In this document: positions 1,482-21,358 of the stretch, one piece after another | Numbering within the stretch: the first letter of the stretch is position 1 | Layout of the letters: every line of letters begins with the position of its first letter | From: Desulfuromonas sp. SDB | GTDB taxonomy: Bacteria > SDB-A | Length of the DNA: 22,092 nt | Reading direction: 5' to 3' | Assembly (NCBI GenBank): GCA_001412365.1 | Contig: LKUE01000158.1 | Location: 1 to 22,092 of the forward strand | Translations under genes and position numbers: made by a program | Notes under the pieces: generated by a model | What the model was told of the DNA's origin: nothing | Database searches by the model: none | What the model saw: only the letters and a program-made list of their open reading frames with translations

Positions 1482-3035
1482 TTAATTAATCTGTAAAAAT
1501 TTTAGGGAGGAGTTGTTCTCTGAACTGGTCATGCGGATAAAGTAAATAGCGGATGCATATAAGTCAAATTGATTAAACCAGAATTCCAGTTGATGGTTTC
1601 CCCCGGATAAATACTGGTCTATCAAAGTGTATAAATTCCGTCCACATAGATCATAAATGGCAATTTTCACCGTTTGATCCTGAGTCAGAGAAAATTCCAC
1701 TCTATATTTTCGGTTTCCTAAATCAGTAAACCTTATTTGATTAGTTCTATCCGGACTCGGGAGTGGTTCTTGAACAGAACCCGGATTTGAATCCACTTCA
1801 TAATGATAACCTAAATCTACCTGACCGATGTCAACCTGATGATCAGTTCGCGTGGTCAGGTTTTCTAATCCTACTGTGGAAGATGTGTTGCTTCCGGAAT
1901 CCACGCAGGGACTTTGCCCAGACTGACCGGCTTGAGTTTGGCTTAAGTAAAATTCACCGTTAGGACCGGTTGCAAATAGGGGGTCATAATCAATAATTCC
2001 GGTTCCGGTCCATCCATTTTCAATACAGCAGTAACTTACATTTGCTGAACTTCCGGTAGCGGGATCTAAATATATCTGGTGGTAGGGGGAGTTCAATGAA
2101 AAATTGTTCCAGATAATACAATCTCTGATTTGAGGAATCTGAATAGACTGATTTAGAACATAAACAGCACCACCCTCCAGATATGATTGATTTTCGAAGA
2201 AGGTATTGTTGGCTACCAGAGATCCGTCATATCTTATGTAAATTCCTCCTCCGGTAGGAGCTTGATTTCCGTAAATCAAATTATTCTTTACAATCTGTTG
2301 ACTCCCGTAATGTCCGATCCACAGGCAAATTCCACCCCCTCCCCAATAGGAAGTTGAACTAACTGTATTATAGCGGATTATATTATCGGTGATACTCACC
2401 CGGCATTGATTAGCATAAATAGCTGCGCCGCTATGACCGGTGGTGTTGTATTCAAAAATATTTCCAGATATCTCCGCTTCACAGATTGCCCCGGTCCAGC
2501 CATCTAAGGTTATTCCAGCCCCATTGTGAATGGAACTGTTATGGTGGAACCAGCAGTTCCGAATAATAGGATCACCATAATAAATTGAGTAAACTGCTCC
2601 TCCCATGCTGGCAGTGTTGTAGGAAAATATGCAGTTTAAAATTTTAGGTGAGCAGTCATCAATATAAATTGCTCCTCCCCGGTTTCCATCCATGCCGTAG
2701 GCATTGCCATTAGTTACGTTGAAACCGTCAACTACGGAGAAACTATCTTCTCCTCTTGTAAAATTAATTCCCCGATGGGGATCACTGGAATCAGCTTCAC
2801 AGTCAATAATGGTTGAATCCGCCCCCTTATCAGAAATCAGTAGAATCGGTTTTCCCTGGAAATCAATATCCCGGTTTCCTGTACCCCTGTATATTCCCGG
2901 GGCAACTACTACCGTATCTCCACCACCCGCAGCATCTATTCCCTGTTGTATATTCGCATATTGTTGAGGGATACGTATGATAATGGAGACAAGTACACAT
3001 TCCAGAAATAAATAATGGATGATCAGGTTGAACAT
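1482..3035 (-). CDS. Secreted right-handed parallel beta-helix protein with T9SS-type sorting domain
   Basis: A 517-residue exported protein. After a hydrophobic N-terminus (residues 3-21) comes the opening IPQQYANIQQGIDAAGGGDTVVVAPGIY-like turn (about 22-50) typical of pectate-lyase-fold repeat proteins. Repeated short strands with GG-A-x-Y/I and N-x-I/F-x-x-N patterns follow to about residue 350. The last 75 residues (FSLTQDQTVKIAIYDLCGR ... IYFIRM ... LKFLQIN) match the beta-sandwich sorting domain of type IX secretion cargo, so surface attachment or release is inferred. Members of this fold bind or cleave polysaccharides, but no catalytic set is evident. The start is supported by AAAGGGA 7 bases upstream. 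It is paralogous to the protein at 16017-17450: both share DTVVVAP and GEDSFSV. It is transcribed divergently from the trehalose operon. Confidence 0.85.
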   Translation of the reverse strand: MFNLIIHYLFLECVLVSIIIRIPQQYANIQQGIDAAGGGDTVVVAPGIYRGTGNRDIDFQGKPILLISDKGADSTIIDCEADSSDPHRGINFTRGEDSFSVVDGFNVTNGNAYGMDGNRGGAIYIDDCSPKILNCIFSYNTASMGGAVYSIYYGDPIIRNCWFHHNSSIHNGAGITLDGWTGAICEAEISGNIFEYNTTGHSGAAIYANQCRVSITDNIIRYNTVSSTSYWGGGGICLWIGHYGSQQIVKNNLIYGNQAPTGGGIYIRYDGSLVANNTFFENQSYLEGGAVYVLNQSIQIPQIRDCIIWNNFSLNSPYHQIYLDPATGSSANVSYCCIENGWTGTGIIDYDPLFATGPNGEFYLSQTQAGQSGQSPCVDSGSNTSSTVGLENLTTRTDHQVDIGQVDLGYHYEVDSNPGSVQEPLPSPDRTNQIRFTDLGNRKYRVEFSLTQDQTVKIAIYDLCGRNLYTLIDQYLSGGNHQLEFWFNQFDLYASAIYFIRMTSSENNSSLKFLQIN

Positions 3036-3235: not shown

Positions 3236-5425
3236 ATGAGTAAGAAAAGACTGGTAATAATATCTAACCGGCTTCCTGTATCTGTTGAAATTAAAGATGA
3301 AATCCAATATCACCAGAGCATGGGAGGATTGGCTACCGGATTATCATCTTTTTATCAGAATTATAATTGTGTGTGGGTGGGTTGGAGTGGTTTAACTGAT
3401 GAAGAGGTCAACCCTGAACAAAGAAAGGAAATTACCCGGCAGTTAAAACAGGAATATCAGTGTCATCCCCTGTTTTTACCGGAAAAGCATCTGAATAATT
3501 ATTACTATGGATTTTGCAATGAAAGTATCTGGCCCTTGTTTCATTATTTCAACCAATATGCAATATTCAAAAAGGAATATTGGGAGTCTTACTATCAGGT
3601 GAACAAATTTTTTTCTGAAAAGTTAACTAAGATTTTAGATACAGGTGATATTTTATGGATACATGATTATCATTTATTTTTGCTCCCCGGTATGATTAGA
3701 AAAAAATTTCCGGATCTGGCAATAGGTTATTTCCTCCATATCCCCTTTCCTTCATTTGAAATATTCAGATTATTGCCCTGGAGAAAAGAACTCCTGGAAG
3801 GTGTAATCTGTTCTGATCTAATCGGATTTCATACTTACGATTATGTCCGTCATTTTCTATCCAGCGTCAGAAGGATTTTAGGTTATGAACATACTTTAGG
3901 AAAATTAAAAGTTAAAAATCATGTGGCTTTAGTGGATATTTTTCCCATGGGTATTGAATACAGCAAATTTGCTACGGCAGTCAGAAAAAAGGAGATAAAG
4001 AAGGAGATAAAAAAAATAAAAGATAACTTGCCTAAGAAAAAAATAATTCTTTCCATTGATCGAATGGACTACACCAAAGGGATTGAACAGAGGTTGAAAT
4101 CTTATGAGATTTTCCTGGAAAAATTTCCCAAGTATCATCAGCAGGTTACTTTAATACTGGTAGCGGTGCCTTCCCGTACTGAAGTTGAACAGTATCAGGA
4201 GTTGAAGAAAGTTATTGAAGTTTTAGTTGCCGAGATCAACGGAAAGTACGGAGGAATAAGCTGGACTCCGATAATTTTTATCTACCGCGCATTTCTTTTT
4301 GAAGAATTAGCTGCGTTGTACAACATTGCGGATGTATGCCTGGTTACTCCGATCAGAGATGGAATGAATTTAATTGCCAAGGAATATATTGCTTCTAAAG
4401 GTAATCAGCCGGGAGTTTTAATTTTAAGTGAAATGGCGGGAGCGGTAGAAGAAATGGGAGAGGTGCTGGTTATTAATCCAAATGATTTTGATCAAATTGC
4501 TCAGGCTATTGATCAAGCTTTAAGTATGCCTGAGCAGGAACAGAAAGAGAGAAACGCAGTAGTAAGAGACAGGTTGAAAAGATATGACATTATTAAATGG
4601 GCTACTGATTTCATTGACAGTTTGTTTCTGATAAAAAAATACCAAAATGATCTGAAAGAAAAAAAATTAAGCCGAAAGTACCAAAAGAAGATAATCGAAG
4701 AGTACATAAAGTCTCAAAATTCACTTTTTCTTCTTGATTATGACGGTACATTGAGGGAATTCCACAAAAAGCCGTCCAAAGCGGTTCCCTCTGAAAAACT
4801 ACTGAAAATTTTAAACGATTTATCCGAAAAATCCCGTGTGGTTATTATAAGCGGAAGAAATGCAAAAACTTTAGATCAATGGTTTAAATCAGTAAGAAAT
4901 TTAGATTTAATAGCAGAACACGGAGTGTGGATTAAAAAATCAGGCTGTTCCTGGGAAACTGTGGAACCATTGAGTCCGGAGTGGAAAGATCAAATAAAAC
5001 CGGTTCTTGAATACTTTGTGGACCGTACTCCGGGCAGTTTTATTGAAGAAAAAGATTATTCACTGGTCTGGCATTTCCGGGGGATTGACCCTGCGCTGGC
5101 TACGGTGAGATCAAATGAATTAAAAGAAACTCTGTTTTGCATGATTGGAAATTTAGATATCGGGATTTTGGAAGGAAATAAAGTTATTGAAATTAAAAAT
5201 TCAGGCATTAACAAAGGACGGGGAGCGCTTTACTTTATCAATGAACAGGATTGGGATTTTATTTTTGCGGCGGGAGACGATGTTACCGATGAGGATATAT
5301 TTCAGGTGCTTCCGGAAAATGCCTGGTCTATAAAAGTGGGATCAGGTTTTTCCAATGCTAAATACACCTTGAATTCAGTGGAGGAGGTGGTTGTTCTGCT
5401 GGAAAAAATGGGAGGTAAAAATTGA
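3236..5425 (+). CDS. otsAB: Bifunctional trehalose-6-phosphate synthase / trehalose-6-phosphate phosphatase
   Basis: A 729-residue cytoplasmic fusion that makes trehalose in two steps: NDP-glucose plus glucose-6-phosphate gives trehalose-6-phosphate, which is then dephosphorylated. Residues 1-470 are the GT20 synthase: ISNRLPVSVE and MGGLATGL near the N-terminus, WIHDYHLFLLPG, YFLHIPFPS, LSIDRMDYTKGIEQR, RDGMNLIAKEY and SEMAGAVEEMG. Residues about 495-725 are the HAD phosphatase: motif I DYDGTLRE with nucleophile Asp501 and Asp503, motif II VVIISGR, and the metal-binding GDDVTDEDIF near 680. All key motifs of both domains appear intact. A lysine-rich stretch (KKEIKKEIKKIK, about residues 257-268) precedes the donor-site motif. 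An AGGA lies 11 bases before the ATG. The stop overlaps the start of the next gene, a second trehalose-forming enzyme. Confidence 0.95.
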   Translation: MSKKRLVIISNRLPVSVEIKDEIQYHQSMGGLATGLSSFYQNYNCVWVGWSGLTDEEVNPEQRKEITRQLKQEYQCHPLFLPEKHLNNYYYGFCNESIWPLFHYFNQYAIFKKEYWESYYQVNKFFSEKLTKILDTGDILWIHDYHLFLLPGMIRKKFPDLAIGYFLHIPFPSFEIFRLLPWRKELLEGVICSDLIGFHTYDYVRHFLSSVRRILGYEHTLGKLKVKNHVALVDIFPMGIEYSKFATAVRKKEIKKEIKKIKDNLPKKKIILSIDRMDYTKGIEQRLKSYEIFLEKFPKYHQQVTLILVAVPSRTEVEQYQELKKVIEVLVAEINGKYGGISWTPIIFIYRAFLFEELAALYNIADVCLVTPIRDGMNLIAKEYIASKGNQPGVLILSEMAGAVEEMGEVLVINPNDFDQIAQAIDQALSMPEQEQKERNAVVRDRLKRYDIIKWATDFIDSLFLIKKYQNDLKEKKLSRKYQKKIIEEYIKSQNSLFLLDYDGTLREFHKKPSKAVPSEKLLKILNDLSEKSRVVIISGRNAKTLDQWFKSVRNLDLIAEHGVWIKKSGCSWETVEPLSPEWKDQIKPVLEYFVDRTPGSFIEEKDYSLVWHFRGIDPALATVRSNELKETLFCMIGNLDIGILEGNKVIEIKNSGINKGRGALYFINEQDWDFIFAAGDDVTDEDIFQVLPENAWSIKVGSGFSNAKYTLNSVEEVVVLLEKMGGKN
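5411..5416 (+). promoter_or_regulatory. Shine-Dalgarno fixing the TTG start of the TreT-like gene
   Basis: GGAGGT lies inside the end of the OtsAB coding region, 5 bases before the TTG at 5422-5424. No ATG lies nearby in frame, so this site supports the unusual start codon and the 4-base TTGA overlap. Confidence 0.7.
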
Positions 5426-7962: not shown

Positions 7963-9708
7963 GTGAATTTTTTTTTAAAAATGGTGATATTAGTTACCGG
8001 ATTTATCCTGTTGATAAATTTTAATTTATATCCCTGTACAACTATATTGGTTACCGCAGGGGCTAGTGAAGACGGATCGGTAATGGTAACCCATTCTGAT
8101 GATAATGAACTTTGTGACGAAAGAATAATTTATGTTCCCGCCATGGATCATCCTTCTGGTTCCTGGAGAATGGTTTATCCATCAGCGGTGGCATTAGGAG
8201 AAATGCCTGAATACAATTGTTTTCTTGAACCCAGGTTAGTTTGTCCGGAAAGAGGACCGGGATATGATACCCCCATCTATCCAGCTACGGTTCCTCTTGG
8301 TTCCATTCCCCAGATTGAACATACCTATTCTTATTTTGACGGAAGTTATGGAATTATCAATGAACATCAATTAATGATTGGTGAATGTACTAATGGTGCA
8401 AAAATTCAGCTTCAGGCAGAACCAGGCAGGAGAATCTTTTATTCCAGTGAATTGTCCCGGGTAGCTTTGGAAAGGTGTAAAACAGCTAGAGAAGCAGTAT
8501 TGTTAATCGGAAAATTAATTGAGCAGTACGGTTATTATGGCACTGGTGAAACTCTTTTATTGGGAGATGCTGAGGAAGGATGGGTGTTGGAAATGTGTTG
8601 TGGCACTCCGGATAGCACCGGAGGATTGTGGGTTGCCCGAAGAGTGCCCCATGGAGAAGTATTTGTAGCCGCCAATGAATTCAGGATAAGAGATATTGAT
8701 CCGGAGGATCCTGATCTGCTATACAGTGAAAATTTCTTTGATATTATCCAGGAAATGGGATGGTGGAAACCGGAGGATGGAACTTTGGATTGGCTGAGAG
8801 CAGTCAGCTTGGGGGAATATAATCATCCCTATTACTCATTGAGGAGAGTGTGGAGAGTGTTGACTTTGGTCGCCCCCAGTTCAGATTTATCTCCATGGGT
8901 GGAAGACGGATTCACCCGGGATTATCCCTTTTCCATCAAGCCGGATAAACCTCTGGAATTAAGAGATGTAATGAATCTGCATCGGGATCATTATGAAGGA
9001 ACTCCTTTTGATATGACTAAGGGTATGGCTGCTGGTCCCTTTGGTTTTCCCAACCGCTACTATGGACCTTATGATGGTCAGGGAGATATCGGCGACCCGG
9101 ATCGTCCCCTGCAGGGAGCATGGGAAAGACCGTTATCGGTAAGTTACTGCGGGTATGTTTATGTAAACCAAGCCAGGAGTTGGATGCCTGAACCATGGGG
9201 AGGCATATGCTGGATGGGTTTGGATCGGCCCTCTGAAACTTGTTATATCCCTTTATATGCAAGCATGAATGATCTGCCTGCTAGTTTGCAGAATTGCAAC
9301 ACTGCTGAGTTCTCCCGGGAAAGTGCCTGGTGGGTATTTAATGCTGTATCTAATTGGTCTTCTTTGAAATACAGTTATATCAGGGAGGATATTAAACATC
9401 TGCAGGACAGCATAGAAAACGCTGAAATCAGTAAAGTAATGACAATTGATTCCATCAGCCGGCAATATCTTGAGCAAGGCAAAAGTATGGAAGAACTGAA
9501 GTGTTATATTTCTGATCAATGTTATGTAAACACTGAACAGGTGGTGAACAGATGGTGGGAATTTTTTGAACAGCTAATTGTCTTCTATGATGATGGATAC
9601 TTGAATTCTCCAATAAGAATGGCTCAAGAAGTCGGATATCCCCAATGGTGGATTGATTCAGTGGGTTGGAGTAATGGTCCAACCAGTTATGAGAAACCTT
9701 CACCTTAA
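7963..9708 (+). CDS. Secreted C69-family dipeptidase (N-terminal nucleophile hydrolase)
   Basis: A 581-residue exported peptidase that probably hydrolyses dipeptides or short peptides outside the inner membrane. A signal peptide (residues 1-24, hydrophobic core MVILVTGFILLINF) ends just before Cys25 in YPCTTILVTAGASEDGSVMV. In family C69 the cysteine becomes the catalytic N-terminal nucleophile after removal of the leader, so signal cleavage and activation may be the same event; this is inferred. Other family-typical segments are the DDN after VTHS, GECTNGAK, ARVALERC-like text near 165, and GYYGTGETLLLGDAEEGWVLE near 195. It has no sorting domain. Length is within the range of longer C69 members. 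It starts at GTG. The neighbours are also exported, and the 37- and 46-base gaps suggest one transcript. Confidence 0.9.
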   Translation: MNFFLKMVILVTGFILLINFNLYPCTTILVTAGASEDGSVMVTHSDDNELCDERIIYVPAMDHPSGSWRMVYPSAVALGEMPEYNCFLEPRLVCPERGPGYDTPIYPATVPLGSIPQIEHTYSYFDGSYGIINEHQLMIGECTNGAKIQLQAEPGRRIFYSSELSRVALERCKTAREAVLLIGKLIEQYGYYGTGETLLLGDAEEGWVLEMCCGTPDSTGGLWVARRVPHGEVFVAANEFRIRDIDPEDPDLLYSENFFDIIQEMGWWKPEDGTLDWLRAVSLGEYNHPYYSLRRVWRVLTLVAPSSDLSPWVEDGFTRDYPFSIKPDKPLELRDVMNLHRDHYEGTPFDMTKGMAAGPFGFPNRYYGPYDGQGDIGDPDRPLQGAWERPLSVSYCGYVYVNQARSWMPEPWGGICWMGLDRPSETCYIPLYASMNDLPASLQNCNTAEFSRESAWWVFNAVSNWSSLKYSYIREDIKHLQDSIENAEISKVMTIDSISRQYLEQGKSMEELKCYISDQCYVNTEQVVNRWWEFFEQLIVFYDDGYLNSPIRMAQEVGYPQWWIDSVGWSNGPTSYEKPSP

Positions 9709-14777: not shown

Positions 14778-15929
14778 ATGGAAGAATTGATTTCAAAATT
14801 AACTGATCTTGTACTGATAATTACCGGATTTGAACTTATAACTCTGATAGTGGTATTGATATTTTTAAAACAGGGCAGAACTATAACTAAAAATTTACTG
14901 ATAATGTTTCTGGCTACCAAGGCGATAATATTGACCCGATGGTTTTTATTTAAATTTGATTTTTTAACTTATGAGCGTTTTTTTCTGTTCTGGCTTTACA
15001 GCGGTACTTTATTTTTCTGGCTTGCACCTGCCGCCTATTTGTATATAAAAGCATTATGTTTCAGGGACTGGAAAATCAAGGTGAGAACATTTTTTCATTT
15101 AATTCCTCTGGTTCTGATTATCATCTATTCTTCTTTTACCGCTATGGTTTGTCAATTTGGATGGATGGTCAATGATCTTACCATCTGGATGTTCGCTAAT
15201 AACTATTCCAAGGTATTTTGGACTGCTAATTTCATACAGATATTGGGATATATCATTGCGGGGATAATTACGGTTAATAAATACCGCAGGAGAATTAAGC
15301 AATCTTATTCATCCGTCAAAAAAATTAATATGAATTGGTTTACCGGTTTAATCGCTGTACTTATTCTTCACTGGATATTTGTAGTAACCCGGGCGGTGTT
15401 CAGTGTTTTTAATTTAACTAATCCCTTATTCCTGAATTTTATGGATTTATTTTCCATAACTATTTTTCTGGTTTTTGCGACAATCTTAGTATTTAAAGGT
15501 CTATATCAGAGTAAAATCTTTTCGGGCATAGATGAGAGTATGAAATATCAGGAAAACAAGATTCCTTCTGAAAATTTTGATGACTATGTGGATAAGATAA
15601 CCTCATTTATGAAGCATGCTAAACCCTACCTTGAACCCACTTTGACTATTGATAAATTTGCCAAGATGATTCATGTTTCCCCCTGGATTGTCTCCAGAGT
15701 GATCAATGAATCCCTTCAGCAGAATTTTTTCAATTTTGTAAATTCCTACCGGATTGAAGAAGTAAAAAAAATGTTGATGGATGAGGTTAATTCAGACCGC
15801 ACTATTTTAGAAATCATGTATGAATGCGGATTTAATTCTAAATCGTCTTTTAACAGCGTGTTTAAAAAACAAACTGGCTTGACTCCCAGCCAGTACCGAG
15901 TTCAAATCGTCAGATCCAAGACCGCCTGA
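14778..15929 (+). CDS. AraC-family regulator with a seven-helix membrane N-terminus
   Basis: A 383-residue predicted membrane-bound transcription factor. About seven hydrophobic helices fill residues 10-245 (clear ones near 10-30, 38-56, 66-90, 104-124, 147-165, 192-210 and 222-245). A cytoplasmic AraC double helix-turn-helix follows at about 285-378: LTIDKFAKMIHVSPWIVSRVI, then ILEIMYECGFNSKSSFNSVFKK and the signature TGLTPSQYR. The arrangement is common in FCB bacteria, where it is thought to pass a membrane signal to nearby genes. It is last in the operon, 6 bases after the PK-C-like gene. Likely targets are its own operon and the beta-helix gene at 16017; both have a similar AGTTT/AAACT repeat upstream. 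The signal is unknown. Confidence 0.88.
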   Translation: MEELISKLTDLVLIITGFELITLIVVLIFLKQGRTITKNLLIMFLATKAIILTRWFLFKFDFLTYERFFLFWLYSGTLFFWLAPAAYLYIKALCFRDWKIKVRTFFHLIPLVLIIIYSSFTAMVCQFGWMVNDLTIWMFANNYSKVFWTANFIQILGYIIAGIITVNKYRRRIKQSYSSVKKINMNWFTGLIAVLILHWIFVVTRAVFSVFNLTNPLFLNFMDLFSITIFLVFATILVFKGLYQSKIFSGIDESMKYQENKIPSENFDDYVDKITSFMKHAKPYLEPTLTIDKFAKMIHVSPWIVSRVINESLQQNFFNFVNSYRIEEVKKMLMDEVNSDRTILEIMYECGFNSKSSFNSVFKKQTGLTPSQYRVQIVRSKTA

Positions 15930-15946
15930 CCTGTTTCCCAGGTATT

Positions 15947-15958
15947 AGTTTGCAAACT
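15947..15958. promoter_or_regulatory. Perfect 12-base palindrome, candidate operator
   Basis: AGTTTGCAAACT is perfectly palindromic and lies 18 bases after the regulator stop and about 60 bases before the second beta-helix gene. It resembles the repeat at 13350-13362 (same arms, one base more in the middle). A dimeric DNA-binding protein could recognise both. A TATATT at 15966-15971 is the only -10-like sequence close by. Confidence 0.35.
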
Positions 15959-15969
15959 CGGACGATATA

Positions 15970-16010
15970 TTCCTGATTTTATTTGAAAATAGTTCAAACA
16001 AAATCAGGAG
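15970..16010 (+). promoter_or_regulatory. Long hairpin enclosing the Shine-Dalgarno of the second beta-helix gene
   Basis: Positions 15971-15987 pair with 15993-16009: 16 of 17 positions match, with a single A-C mismatch at 15981/15999 and a five-base AATAG loop. A T-G wobble at 15970/16010 extends the stem. The right arm ends inside AGGAGG (16006-16011), the ribosome binding site for the ATG at 16017, so the folded RNA would mask it. No U-run follows, so it is not a typical terminator. Control of translation by RNA folding, by a protein or by an upstream ribosome is inferred. Confidence 0.6.
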
Positions 16011-16016
16011 GTTGTA

Positions 16017-17450
16017 ATGCAGAGAAAAACACTTGGAGGTTTAGTGGTATTATTGGTAATCACCCCTTCTCTTTTGCTGTCCCATATTATCAATGTGCCC
16101 CAGGACCAGGTTACTATTCAAATGGGCATTGATTCTGCAGGAGTATTGGATACGGTGGTGGTCGCTCCGGATACCTATCATGAAAATATTGATTTCCGAG
16201 GTAAATGTATTGTGTTAACCAGTAATTACATGTTTACTCAAAATCCCCAGGACATCATGGGAACAGTAATTGACGGAAGCAGTCCTCCAGTTGCAGATTC
16301 TGCCAGTACAGTTAGATTCTGGACCGGAGAAGACAGCTTCAGTGTGTTAACTGGATTTACCATAACCGGAGGGGGTGGAACTAAATGGATAGATCCCCAG
16401 TATCCCAGTTATACCTGGAGAGGAGGAGGAGGAGTTTTTATATACAATTCAAGTCCACTAATCGAGAACAATATTATTATAGGTAATGAAGTCACCAATA
16501 TGACTGGAGTTTCCGGTGCCCAGGGAGGGGGGATGATTACCTTTGGGGGGAATCCGGTGATAAGAAATAATTTGATCACTGAAAATCAAGCTTTATACGG
16601 AGCAGGAGTAGATATTAACTATTCCGGATGCCTTGTGAAGAACAACATTATTTACGAGAATTCAGGAGGGCAGACTTACGGAGGAGCAGGAATCTGGACA
16701 ATAGGAAATTCAAGCGATTCAATCATTATTGAAAATAACAGCATAATATCCAATCATTCATCCGGTTCAGGAGGATACGGAGGATGGGGAGGGGGAATCT
16801 TCATCTGGACCAGTAATTTATATCTGAGAAATAATATCATTTGGGCTAATACTCAGACCACCGGAGGACCGATTGCCATGATTAATGGAGGTTATGCTTT
16901 CGCCAGCTACAATGATATAGAAGGAGGATTCGCCGGTACCGGGAATATTGATGAAAATCCCTGTTTTGAAGATTCAGGATTTATTTTAACCGATAGTTCC
17001 GGTTGTGTTGACTGGGGTAATCCCGCAGGGGAGTTCAACGATCCTGAAGACAATCAAAACCCGGGATTTGCCCAATATCCCGCAAAAGGCTCTTTAACCA
17101 ATGACATAGGAGCTTATGGAGGACCTTGGAGTCAATCAATTCCCATTTTTACCTCAGGGATTGAGGAACAAAATCCAGTCATTATTTATGGAGAGAACAA
17201 TTTAATGGAAGTCATCCCCCGTGGAAATAATTATTTTTTGTTGAAATATTCCGTCTTTCATAGATGTCCGGTGAAAATTAATATATTCAGGATAGATGGA
17301 TGTTTAGCTGACCGGATATTTAATCAGATCCAGGATGGGGGGAGCTATCAAATTAATATTGACTTGAATAATCTCTGCCCTGGTTCGTATATTTTACTGA
17401 TGTTTACCGTTTACGGAAAAAATTCTCAGAAAATTACCATACTTAACTAA
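16017..17450 (+). CDS. Secreted parallel beta-helix protein with T9SS-type sorting domain (second copy)
   Basis: A 477-residue exported protein. Signal peptide is about residues 1-22 (GGLVVLLVITPSLLLSH). INVPQDQVTIQMGIDSAG and DTVVVAPDTY open the helix, then repeated strands rich in GGG, N-N-I-I and S-G patterns run to about residue 320. The end (VKINIFRIDGCLADRIF ... PGSYILLMFTVYGKNSQKITILN) is a T9SS type A-like sorting domain. It shares DTVVVAP, NIDF-G and GEDSFSV with the protein at 1482-3035 but is shorter and clearly diverged, so the two are paralogues. Surface carbohydrate binding or cleavage is a fold-based guess. AGGAGG lies 5 bases before the ATG but inside a strong hairpin. An intrinsic terminator follows 5 bases after the stop. 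Confidence 0.85.
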   Translation: MQRKTLGGLVVLLVITPSLLLSHIINVPQDQVTIQMGIDSAGVLDTVVVAPDTYHENIDFRGKCIVLTSNYMFTQNPQDIMGTVIDGSSPPVADSASTVRFWTGEDSFSVLTGFTITGGGGTKWIDPQYPSYTWRGGGGVFIYNSSPLIENNIIIGNEVTNMTGVSGAQGGGMITFGGNPVIRNNLITENQALYGAGVDINYSGCLVKNNIIYENSGGQTYGGAGIWTIGNSSDSIIIENNSIISNHSSGSGGYGGWGGGIFIWTSNLYLRNNIIWANTQTTGGPIAMINGGYAFASYNDIEGGFAGTGNIDENPCFEDSGFILTDSSGCVDWGNPAGEFNDPEDNQNPGFAQYPAKGSLTNDIGAYGGPWSQSIPIFTSGIEEQNPVIIYGENNLMEVIPRGNNYFLLKYSVFHRCPVKINIFRIDGCLADRIFNQIQDGGSYQINIDLNNLCPGSYILLMFTVYGKNSQKITILN

Positions 17451-17455
17451 ATTTA

Positions 17456-17482
17456 AGGGGATTCTTGATATTAGAATCCCCT
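17456..17482 (+). terminator. Intrinsic terminator after the beta-helix gene
   Basis: AGGGGATTCT and AGAATCCCCT form a perfect 10-base-pair stem with a 7-base loop, followed by CTCTTTGGTTT. The T-run is interrupted, but the stem is strong and lies immediately after the stop codon at 17448-17450. Confidence 0.75.
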
Positions 17483-17643
17483 CTCTTTGGTTTAACTGTA
17501 CTCTTTTTCACTTAAATAATTTAATTAATTAATTTCATTGAAAAATGCTTTATCACCGTATAATTAATTAAGCAGAAACTTAAAATGATAATGAAAATAT
17601 TATTTTAGAATAGTAAAATAAAAATAAAAGGAGGAGGAAAAAT

Positions 17644-18057: not shown

Positions 18058-18567
18058 ATGGTTAAAACATATTTGAAAAAGCCTGACTATGGAGATTTAA
18101 AATTTATCAGGAGATTGTGGTCTGATCCCCCTACCATGAAAGAAGTGGGAGGAACAGTAGTGTTAACGGACAGCCAAGCTGAACAGTGGTACCACAAGAT
18201 GATAACTCCGGGCAGCTCCGGGCATTGCTACCGCATTATCCTGAATAAAGATTTTCAACCGGTGGGTGAGGTCAGTTTTCATGATTACGATGATAATTCA
18301 GGCAAAGCCAGGTTTAATGTTAAAATTCTTGCTGACTGCAGAGGGTCAGGATACGGAAAATCAGCAATTTACCAGCTTTTAGATTATTTTTTCAATAGGC
18401 GGGGAGGGATGATTATGGAAGATTATTTAGCTTTAAATAATGACAAGGGTAGAGAAGTACTTATTAAGTTCGGATTCCAGTGGGATCAAACCAGAAAAGA
18501 TGTTGTCCGGTTATTTTTGACCAATAAAGATTTCAATAAACTGTATCCGTCGTCTTTTGAACATTAA
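18058..18567 (+). CDS. GNAT-family N-acetyltransferase (RimJ/RimL-like)
   Basis: A 169-residue cytoplasmic acyltransferase with one GNAT domain. The N-terminus (LKKPDYGDLKFIRRLWSDPPTMKEVGGTV) has the layout of the RimJ/RimL group. Motif A is FNVKILADCRGSGYGKSAIYQLL (R-G-S-G-Y-G core, about residues 82-104), and NDKGREVLIKFGF is the usual C-terminal helix-strand. No Shine-Dalgarno is visible, but it starts 9 bases after the thioesterase stop, so coupling is likely. It is not close in sequence to the GNAT protein at 163-951. The acceptor is unknown. Confidence 0.85.
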   Translation: MVKTYLKKPDYGDLKFIRRLWSDPPTMKEVGGTVVLTDSQAEQWYHKMITPGSSGHCYRIILNKDFQPVGEVSFHDYDDNSGKARFNVKILADCRGSGYGKSAIYQLLDYFFNRRGGMIMEDYLALNNDKGREVLIKFGFQWDQTRKDVVRLFLTNKDFNKLYPSSFEH

Positions 18568-18585: not shown

Positions 18586-20061
18586 ATGAATAACTATATT
18601 GACGAACTAAATGCACTGCAAAAACAGCTGGAGATGACTTCAGCCAAGGATAAATTAGATGTTCTGAAAAGATTAGTAGTTTTAACTGAAGATGAAAATC
18701 CAAACCAGGCTGAAAAATTTTGTCTGGCTGCACTAGAGGAAATAAAGCATGATCCAGACCCAGTTTTACAGGGTCAATTTTTAATTGAATTGATAAAGAC
18801 CTACATAAAACTGCAGAAATATTCCAAGGCATCAGAGTATTCGAAATATTGCCTGACTCTTCAGGATGAAATCTACGGTCCTCTAGCTGAACAAATTATC
18901 GGTCAATTTCATTCCCTGAATGGAATGATATATTATCATTTCAATGATTACAAGCAAGCCCTGAGTAGTTTTAACCGGTCCCTTAAATTTTTTCATATGT
19001 GTAACCGGGATAAGGAAATTGGCGAGGTGTGCAGAAATATTGCCCTTATTTATCAAAGGTTGGGTGATTATTGGCAAGCGCTGGATTACTTAAATCATGC
19101 TGATGATATCTATTCCCAAATTTCAGATGATCATGGAAAAGCTAAAACACTTAATAATATTGGAATAATTCATGCGAGGTTAAAAAACTACAATGAAGCG
19201 GTAACCTATTATACTGCTTCACTTAAGATCAGGGAAAAATTAAATGATAAAATCGGTAAATCACGGGTTTATAATAATTTAGGAAATGCCCTGCTCAATT
19301 TAAAACAGTTTGAAAAGTCTATTGAATATTATCTTAAAGCTGAAAAAATTTTAATTAATTCGGTATATAAAAACAACTTGGCTGATGTATATCATAATTT
19401 AGGACATATTTACCAAAAATTAAAAAATCTGCCATTATCCTTAAAATATTACCAAAATTGTTTAAATATAAGGAAAAATATTGAAGACAGGTACAATTAT
19501 ATTAAGGTACTGACTAATATTGCTTCAGTACATTGCCATTTGGGAAGTTTATCTGAAGCGGAAAAATACATACGGCAGGCTTTAGATAATTCAAAAGACA
19601 TTGAATCAAAAGAATTGAGTATTGGTTTGTATTCAACTATGGCTGAAATATTTAGAGCAAAACAGCAGTATTTAAAAGCATTGGAAATGCTTAAAAAATA
19701 CGGTGAGGTAAAAAAACAGGTGTTCAATGAGAAATGCAATCAGCAGATGGCAGATTTTCAAATTAGATACCAGATTGATCAGCAGCAGCAGCAAATTGCA
19801 ATTTATAAATCCAAAAATATCCGGTTGATAAATGCTAACAAAAAATTGAGAAAAGCGATAAAACAACTGAAGATATTAAAAGGTTTACTTCCTATCTGCC
19901 CCCGGTGTAAAAAAATCAGAGATGACCAGGGGTATTGGACCCAGGTGGAGGAGTATGTCGTAAATCATTCCGATGCCGAATTTACTCATGGTCTCTGTCC
20001 GGAATGCGCCAAGAAGTTTTTTCCCGAAGTAGATATTAACCAGGATCAGACCGGTGAATGA
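18586..20061 (+). CDS. TPR-repeat protein with a four-cysteine C-terminal domain (first of a tandem pair)
   Basis: A 491-residue cytoplasmic protein. Residues about 20-385 are a run of tetratricopeptide repeats, for example ALSSFNRSLKFF, YWQALDYLNHADD, NEAVTYYTASLKIREKL and FEKSIEYYLKAEKIL. A coiled coil (about 385-432, QIDQQQQQIAIYKSKNIRLI) leads into LKGLLPICPRCKKIRDDQGYW. The last 60 residues hold C438-x2-C441-x29-C471-x2-C474 with HGLCPEC, a probable zinc-binding module. The same module is often found at the end of PAS or response-regulator proteins of bacteria, in the place of an output domain; its role is unknown. No kinase, GGDEF or HTH domain is present. GAAG lies 8 bases before the ATG. 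The second copy overlaps its stop by 8 bases. Confidence 0.85.
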   Translation: MNNYIDELNALQKQLEMTSAKDKLDVLKRLVVLTEDENPNQAEKFCLAALEEIKHDPDPVLQGQFLIELIKTYIKLQKYSKASEYSKYCLTLQDEIYGPLAEQIIGQFHSLNGMIYYHFNDYKQALSSFNRSLKFFHMCNRDKEIGEVCRNIALIYQRLGDYWQALDYLNHADDIYSQISDDHGKAKTLNNIGIIHARLKNYNEAVTYYTASLKIREKLNDKIGKSRVYNNLGNALLNLKQFEKSIEYYLKAEKILINSVYKNNLADVYHNLGHIYQKLKNLPLSLKYYQNCLNIRKNIEDRYNYIKVLTNIASVHCHLGSLSEAEKYIRQALDNSKDIESKELSIGLYSTMAEIFRAKQQYLKALEMLKKYGEVKKQVFNEKCNQQMADFQIRYQIDQQQQQIAIYKSKNIRLINANKKLRKAIKQLKILKGLLPICPRCKKIRDDQGYWTQVEEYVVNHSDAEFTHGLCPECAKKFFPEVDINQDQTGE

Positions 20062-21358
20062 GATAGAAAATTTAAAGATACAGTTACAAAACACACAGGG
20101 AGAAGCCAGAGCTGAAATTTTATATAAATTATCTGAATTGTCCATGGAAACCGACCTTGAGATGAGTATTGAGTATTGCCGGAAAGCAGAACAATCTTTT
20201 GAAAAAAACAACCACATGGAGAAAGTGGCTGAATGTAAATTCAGATTTGGAGAACTTTACACTAAAAAGTGCGAGTATTTAAAAGCTAAACAGCATTATC
20301 TTGATTCATTGGAGCTGTTTGAAAAATCTAATAATCTAAGCAGAATTGCCAGATCTTTAAATGCGGTGGGAAATTCTTTCTGGTATCTTAGTAATTATGA
20401 ACAAGCATTAAGTTATTACCTCCGGGCTTTTAAAATATTTGAAGAAATTAATGATTTCAGCAATGCCGGTTTAACCGCAATGAATATCGGCAATGTTAAC
20501 TGGGCAAATAAAAGGATGGATAAAGCAAAGCAGTACTATCAATTAAGTTATCAATACCATCAAAAGAGTAAAGAGCTGCGAGGTCTTATTTATGCAACAA
20601 TTAGCCTGGGGAATATTGAACTGCATGCTGAAAATTATGATCAGGCTTTAGATTGGTATCAGCAGGCATACCAATTAAATCAGCAGGAACATGACCTCAG
20701 CGGGGATATCATGCTTTTAAATAATATGGGCACCTGTTATCTTGAAAAAAACAATTATGATAAGGCATTAGATTGCTACAATCAATCCATGAAATTAGGA
20801 GAGGAAAATCACGAGTTTTGGAATTTGAGTTTGACTTACTGCAGTTTGGGAATAATTCATTTAAACACCGGGGAATATAGTATATCCAGTTTTTATTTCG
20901 ATAAATCCATGGAATTAGCTGAAAAAAACGATATGAAATTTTTATTGAAAGATATTTATGAAAATTATTCAAAACTTTTTGAAGCTCAGAAAAATTATAT
21001 TAAAGCTATAGAATATTTTGAAAAATATATAAACATAATAGAGCAGATTTACAATGAGGAAAGATCGAAAAAAATTGATGAAATGCAGTCGAAATACGAA
21101 TTTGAAAAAAAAGAAATGGAAGCGGAGATTTATCGCCTGCAGAATATAGAATTATCCCAGATAAATCGGGAACTGAAGCAAACTGCGGACAATATTAAAA
21201 TTTTAGCCGGCTTGCTCCCCATGTGCGCAAGTTGCAAGAAGATCAGAGATGATAGTGGTTATTGGAAAAAAATTGAAAATTATCTGGAGGAGCATTCCAA
21301 GCTTTATTTTGTGGAGAGTTTGTGTCCGGACTGCAAGAAAATAGAATCGGAAAGCTGA
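20054..21358 (+). CDS. TPR-repeat protein with a four-cysteine C-terminal domain (second of a tandem pair)
   Basis: A 434-residue paralogue of the preceding protein. About eight TPR units fill residues 15-335 (for example YEQALSYYLRAFKIFEEI, YDQALDWYQQAYQLNQQ and YDKALDCYNQSMKLGEE). A coiled coil (about 335-385) and the module ILAGLLPMCASCKKIRDDSGYW follow, with C391-x2-C394-x29-C424-x2-C427, exactly the cysteine spacing of the first copy. It starts at GTG, overlapping the previous stop by 8 bases; the start is backed by AGGA at 20042-20045 and by alignment of MNEIENLKIQLQ with the first copy's N-terminus. It is about 57 residues shorter because of fewer repeats. TPRs bind proteins or peptides, so a scaffold or sensor role is likely. 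Confidence 0.85.
   Translation: MNEIENLKIQLQNTQGEARAEILYKLSELSMETDLEMSIEYCRKAEQSFEKNNHMEKVAECKFRFGELYTKKCEYLKAKQHYLDSLELFEKSNNLSRIARSLNAVGNSFWYLSNYEQALSYYLRAFKIFEEINDFSNAGLTAMNIGNVNWANKRMDKAKQYYQLSYQYHQKSKELRGLIYATISLGNIELHAENYDQALDWYQQAYQLNQQEHDLSGDIMLLNNMGTCYLEKNNYDKALDCYNQSMKLGEENHEFWNLSLTYCSLGIIHLNTGEYSISSFYFDKSMELAEKNDMKFLLKDIYENYSKLFEAQKNYIKAIEYFEKYINIIEQIYNEERSKKIDEMQSKYEFEKKEMEAEIYRLQNIELSQINRELKQTADNIKILAGLLPMCASCKKIRDDSGYWKKIENYLEEHSKLYFVESLCPDCKKIESES

Follow-up and report, generated by a model that had tools for sequence, protein, structure and literature searches.

The better-supported control element in front of a gene for a secreted, beta-helix-like protein of Desulfuromonas sp. 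SDB is a conserved 25-bp motif rather than the strong hairpin that follows it. Judged from its conservation in five leaders, the simplest reading is that the motif is probably the operator of the membrane AraC-type regulator encoded immediately upstream. The hairpin buries the Shine-Dalgarno (SD) sequence of the gene and is best read as an addition specific to this lineage. Comparison with relatives shifts the focus from a striking RNA structure to the far better conserved DNA site beside it. Secreted beta-helix-like proteins form a large family that is uncharacterised and comes from poorly studied bacteria; motif, regulator and gene together give it a regulator-operator-target unit that can be tested.

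The locus and its relatives

The DNA analysed, referred to here as the window, is a stretch of 22,092 nucleotides. The features discussed are listed in Table 1. The 477-residue product of the gene of interest has repeats rich in glycine and asparagine, of the parallel beta-helix kind; this description, like that of the sorting domain, was read from the sequence, and searches of Pfam, NCBIfam and the PDB with the protein gave no match. The regulator has a C-terminal HTH_18/AraC domain, and its hydrophobic N-terminal part is probably membrane-spanning. Its gene stops at 15929, leaving 41 nt to the left arm of the hairpin, and the only terminator-like sequence in between is a marginal one with a 5-pair stem (15929-15943).

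Regulator and beta-helix genes are paired, on the same strand and in the same order, in the window genome (G000), in G003 (contig 44), in the metagenome-assembled genome L068, which is labelled Ignavibacteria, and in G060. The AraC orthologues directly 5′ of the beta-helix orthologues share 40% (G003), 47% (L068) and 46% (G060) identity with the window regulator. A further genome, L069 (labelled Eisenbacteria), has the beta-helix orthologue alone, with no AraC match adjoining it or elsewhere in the assembly. Orthologues of the 477-residue protein are about 48-50% identical. At a protein identity of only about 40-50% these relatives are distant; scanning the genome collection with nothing but the window protein returned no relatives, and an alignment that included the G003 protein recovered them.

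Table 1. Features of the regulator and beta-helix locus, and sigma-like genes next to paralogous beta-helix genes
Feature	Position	Strand	Basis
AraC-type regulator, 383 aa	14778..15929	+	Pfam HTH_18, E 1.8e-19
25-bp motif GTATTAGTTTGCAAACTCGGACGAT, probable AraC operator or activator-dependent promoter element	15942..15966	+	ungapped in five leaders
TATATT, possible -10 hexamer, weak, without matching -35	15966..15971	+	read from sequence; not called by promoter scan
Left arm of hairpin, TCCTGATTTTATTTGAA	15971..15987	+	pairing; similar sequence in G060 leader
Loop AATAG	15988..15992	+	read from sequence
Right arm of hairpin, TTCAAACAAAATCAGGA, extends into SD	15993..16009	+	pairing and fold
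Shine-Dalgarno AGGAGG, 5 nt 5′ of ATG	16006..16011	+	sequence; computed opening energy
Secreted repeat (beta-helix-like) protein, 477 aa	16017..17450	+	ORF; signal peptide, C-terminal sorting-like domain
Sigma-70 region 2 protein	L061:2200-3081	-	directly 3′ of paralogous beta-helix gene
Sigma-70 region 2 protein	L062:5348-6229	+	directly 3′ of paralogous beta-helix gene
Sigma-70 region 2 protein	L063:1620-2495	-	directly 3′ of paralogous beta-helix gene
Sigma-70 region 2 protein	L066:6794-7669	+	directly 3′ of paralogous beta-helix gene

The conserved motif

The motif ends 4 bp 5′ of the hairpin, just outside the segment covered by a preliminary description of this DNA that had drawn attention to the RNA structure. 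Its counterparts are GTCCGGCTTTTTAAATTCGGTCGAC (G003), GTTCTGCTTTATCAATCAGGACGAC (L068), GTCCAGCTTTCCGAAGTCGGACGAC (L069) and GTCCGACTTTCTAAAATTGGTCGAC (G060). The information content of the five is 34.9 bits, compared with a mean of 25.2 bits (sd 0.6, maximum 27.1) in 60 shuffled sets. The motif forms an imperfect dyad, GTCC-N3-TTT-N2-AAA-N3-GGAC, extended on one side by a conserved GAC/GAT. The search pattern GTNNNNSTTTNNNAANNNGGWCGAY, derived from the same five leaders, matches each of the five genomes exactly once, and every match is at the beta-helix gene; genomes G001, G002 and G004 give no match to it, and no AraC orthologue was found in them either. A stricter pattern has two matches across 386 genomes, both at this gene. 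The distance from motif to start codon varies, being 50 nt in the window and 63-105 nt in the others.

The motif mostly keeps company with the regulator. Both are present in G000, G003, L068 and G060, and related beta-helix genes that have no adjoining AraC gene lack the motif. The exception is L069, where it lies about 60-90 nt before position 3998, 5′ of the beta-helix orthologue; the regulator may be missing from that metagenome-assembled genome, or another factor may read the motif. With a motif in L069 and no AraC match to go with it, the assignment of the motif to the AraC regulator is no more than probable. The window carries a second, more distant beta-helix gene (1482-3035, minus strand), and the genome-wide search finds no copy of this AraC-linked motif there.

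The leader hairpin and the Shine-Dalgarno sequence

The geometry given in the preliminary description is exact: the two arms of the inverted repeat form 16 of 17 possible Watson-Crick pairs around a 5-base loop. The single mismatch is A.C (15981/15999), and a U.G pair (15970/16010) lengthens the stem. The right arm was said to reach into the SD sequence, and AGGA of the AGGAGG indeed lies inside the 17-nt arm. Also borne out are the lack of a T-run 3′ of the stem and the singularity of the structure among gene starts; it is the strongest inverted repeat in the window and the sole one at a gene start. Folded in isolation the leader (15970-16016) reaches -16.9 kcal/mol with a z-score of -5.05, equalled by none of 200 shuffles. 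The signal is local, because z drops to only -1.99 once the flanks are included (15930-16060). An intrinsic terminator was considered and rejected, since a G+C-rich stem followed by a T-run is needed, the T-run is absent and the terminator scan made no call.

The genomic background for inverted repeats was about 158 kb of sampled contigs from the same genome. Two repeats score this high in these 157.7 kb; shuffled sequence yields one in 788 kb. The second is a near-perfect palindrome with 19-nt arms and a 5-nt loop, TATAT (L042:8383-8425), 3′ of a minus-strand gene for a secreted protein (8554-9474) and away from any gene start. A search of the 3.14-Mb genome for further copies of the repeat core, allowing up to 3 mismatches, found none, so the repeat is single-copy.

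How deeply is the SD sequence buried? AGGA is paired within a stable stem, as in SD-sequestering leader hairpins of the phage T4 gene e type, and opening the SD is computed to cost 8.8 kcal/mol at 37 °C. The median is 2.7 kcal/mol for 49 sampled gene starts, among which this one ranks third, and one of the two ranked above it, window position 18160, is an internal start that is probably not real. Burial this deep is unusual, yet not unique. When just the leader 5′ of the SD is shuffled, the mean cost is 3.9 kcal/mol (P 0.005).

The burial depends on where the transcript begins. Computed costs are 9.6, 8.9 and 8.8 kcal/mol for transcripts starting at 15930, 15960 and 15971, respectively, and 0.4, 1.2, 2.6 and 1.0 kcal/mol for those starting at 15976, 15981, 15988 and 15993. 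Sequestration is lost in the computation once the outer left arm is missing, that is, with starts at or beyond 15976. The proposal that the hairpin buries the ribosome-binding site is supported, provided that the whole stem is transcribed; the switch role attached to it is not supported.

An RNA switch, whether a thermometer, a ligand-sensing leader or a protein-bound leader opened by a signal, would suit a single strong hairpin that buries the SD, and we consider it very improbable. There is no evident alternative fold, the hairpin is not conserved and an Rfam search of the window at the gathering score returned no matches, hence no known riboswitch or leader family. A thermometer-like element had been suggested. 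The computed opening cost declines smoothly with heat, from 10.1 kcal/mol at 25 °C to 8.8 at 37 °C, 6.9 at 55 °C and 3.8 at 75 °C. The fourU and ROSE thermometers likewise hold the SD within a stem of the 5′ leader. The present leader differs from them: it matches no Rfam family, and its stem is much too stable for an element that should be marginally stable in the physiological range.

Absence of the hairpin in relatives

Between motif and start codon, the best hairpins of G003, L068, L069 and G060 are no better than chance (P 0.21, 0.48, 1.0 and 0.31, respectively, against shuffles). The SD opening costs in the same order, 2.8, 5.0, 5.7 and 2.8 kcal/mol, fall within those of shuffled leaders (P 0.14 to 0.8). 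A search for compensatory base changes in the leaders of related genomes had been suggested as a check. The pairing is kept in none of the four relatives and no compensatory change is seen; with the hairpin absent from all of them there is no covariation to draw on. The preliminary description also named, as evidence against itself, relatives that keep the gene and do not conserve the left arm. In three relatives the gene is kept and the left arm is unrecognisable. In the fourth, G060, the left-arm sequence is similar and the stem is broken.

The G060 leader is homologous to that of the window (TCCTGAATTTCATCTGAAACTTTCAAAC compared with TCCTGATTTTATTTGAAAATAGTTCAAAC; the local alignment score is matched by none of 2000 shuffles), yet its right-arm stretch differs and its fold is no stronger than those of shuffled versions (z +0.99). 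Because this leader is homologous yet unfolded, either the left-arm sequence predates the stem or G060 has lost the stem.

In G003 (L060, minus strand) the interval between motif and gene contains, about 60 nt 5′ of the start at 4251, an 8-codon ORF (GTG AAC TGG TCA GAG AAG ATC CAA TAA). With its own GGAGG it may be a leader ORF, or it may have arisen by chance.

A stem confined to one lineage can be explained without any selected function. Replication template-switch correction could have perfected a weaker quasi-palindrome which the gene tolerates, perhaps via transcripts that start inside or after it. We judge this rather unlikely in itself and a serious rival; the restriction of the stem to a single lineage agrees with it roughly as well as with the insulating role discussed below. 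It would account for the homologous, unfolded leader of G060, whose differences from the window leader lie mostly in the right-arm stretch, complementary in the window, and a palindrome of the same kind, at L042:8383-8425, occurs away from gene starts. Against it, the repeat ends precisely on the SD, and the left-arm sequence is common to a distant genome, so that the leader is somewhat constrained.

The inverted repeat might instead act as DNA, as an operator for a dimeric regulator, maybe a second AraC site or the site of a separate repressor. Its position, 4 bp past the motif and within what is likely the promoter region, would suit such a role, as would the leader sequence partly shared with G060. 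The single-copy status of the repeat and the lack of the long dyad in relatives count against it. Moreover, the inner TGAA/TTCA elements are spaced by 5 in the window and by 3 in G060, a change that a rigid dimer would not readily tolerate. We regard this reading of the hairpin as improbable.

A possible insulating role for the hairpin

If the hairpin has a function, insulation of the beta-helix gene against read-through is the most likely one. Our proposal, which we hold tentatively and at somewhat less than an even chance, is that the beta-helix gene is a target of the AraC-type regulator, that the motif is the site of this regulator, and that the lineage-specific hairpin silences read-through while transcripts with later starts escape. 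An AraC-type regulator would bind at 15942-15966 and control the gene, unless the motif is an activator-dependent promoter element. Class II activation is the usual mode of AraC-type activators. Acting from the motif, it would place the transcription start some 30-40 bp downstream, within or past the hairpin. With a start at about 15976 or later, a transcript would be missing the outer left arm, and its SD would be free (0.4-2.6 kcal/mol). Read-through from the AraC gene, if it occurs, would give transcripts with the complete stem (8.8-9.6 kcal/mol), a buried SD and low translation. Both the binding and the transcript starts are steps that we infer, and the absence of the hairpin from all four relatives speaks against the proposal, as do the lack of a convincing promoter, the varying distance from motif to start codon and the presence of the motif in L069.

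Where would transcription begin? The promoter scan found no convincing promoter at the locus. Taken as a -10 element, TATATT, the one good hexamer of this kind close by, would put the start near 15978, inside the left arm. Comparison by eye gives TATAAC in G060, TATAAG in G003, TAATAA or TAAATT in L068 and none clear in L069; a -10 hexamer common to the leaders and evenly spaced from the motif is not evident, the distance in the window being unlike those in the relatives.

There is a precedent in phage T4. Longer early transcripts of gene e are silenced about 100-fold, and translation occurs from late ones, in which the 5′ portion of the structure is missing (PMC3014915). The likeness to gene e (lysozyme; also soc, 49 and I-TevI; PMC3014915) is that a stem buries the SD in longer transcripts from upstream and would leave it free in those that begin inside or beyond the left arm; in the window this release is computed. 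The window case differs in being a bacterial chromosomal gene with inferred transcript starts and a hairpin that is not conserved in relatives. A chromosomal hairpin of the gene e kind beside an AraC operator, such that only regulator-driven transcripts starting within the stem are translated and read-through from the regulator gene stays silent, we consider unlikely; if true, the insulating hairpin would be a cellular counterpart of the phage trick.

Related regulator systems

The pairing of an AraC-type DNA-binding domain with a neighbouring secreted-protein gene recalls NCBIfam TIGR04094, the YSIRK-targeted surface antigen transcriptional regulator. The window regulator matches that family in the DNA-binding domain alone (38 bits, where the cut-off is 200), its N-terminal part looks membrane-spanning and the targets differ.

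Paralogous beta-helix genes are arranged in another way. Genomes G000-G004 together contain five copies of the sequence GTCACA-N15-17-GTCTAA, all lying just 5′ of a beta-helix gene, and in four of the five cases the next gene downstream encodes a sigma-70 region 2 protein of about 290 aa (Table 1). This looks like a self-contained operon of sigma factor and surface protein. The ECF41 promoter signature is TGTCACA-n16-CGTC (PMC3426412). The GTCACA-N16-GTCTAA of the paralogues is close to it, and a sigma-like gene mostly follows directly 3′; the likeness to ECF41 sigma factors is drawn by promoter motif. The window gene, in contrast, has neither the GTCACA motif nor a sigma-like gene and pairs with the AraC regulator. 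An ECF41-type promoter for it was rejected, as GTCACA-N15-18-GTCTAA is absent throughout the window. Dedicated regulators seem to accompany beta-helix genes in this group: some have a sigma factor, and the window gene has the AraC-type protein.

Just 3′ of the beta-helix gene, at 17455-17483, a terminator-like hairpin of 10-11 pairs is called on both strands. Further downstream two adjoining, overlapping genes for TPR-like repeat proteins (18586-20061 and 20054-21358) share a terminal cysteine motif (CPRCKKIRDDQGYW and CASCKKIRDDSGYW) and are apparently a duplicated pair.
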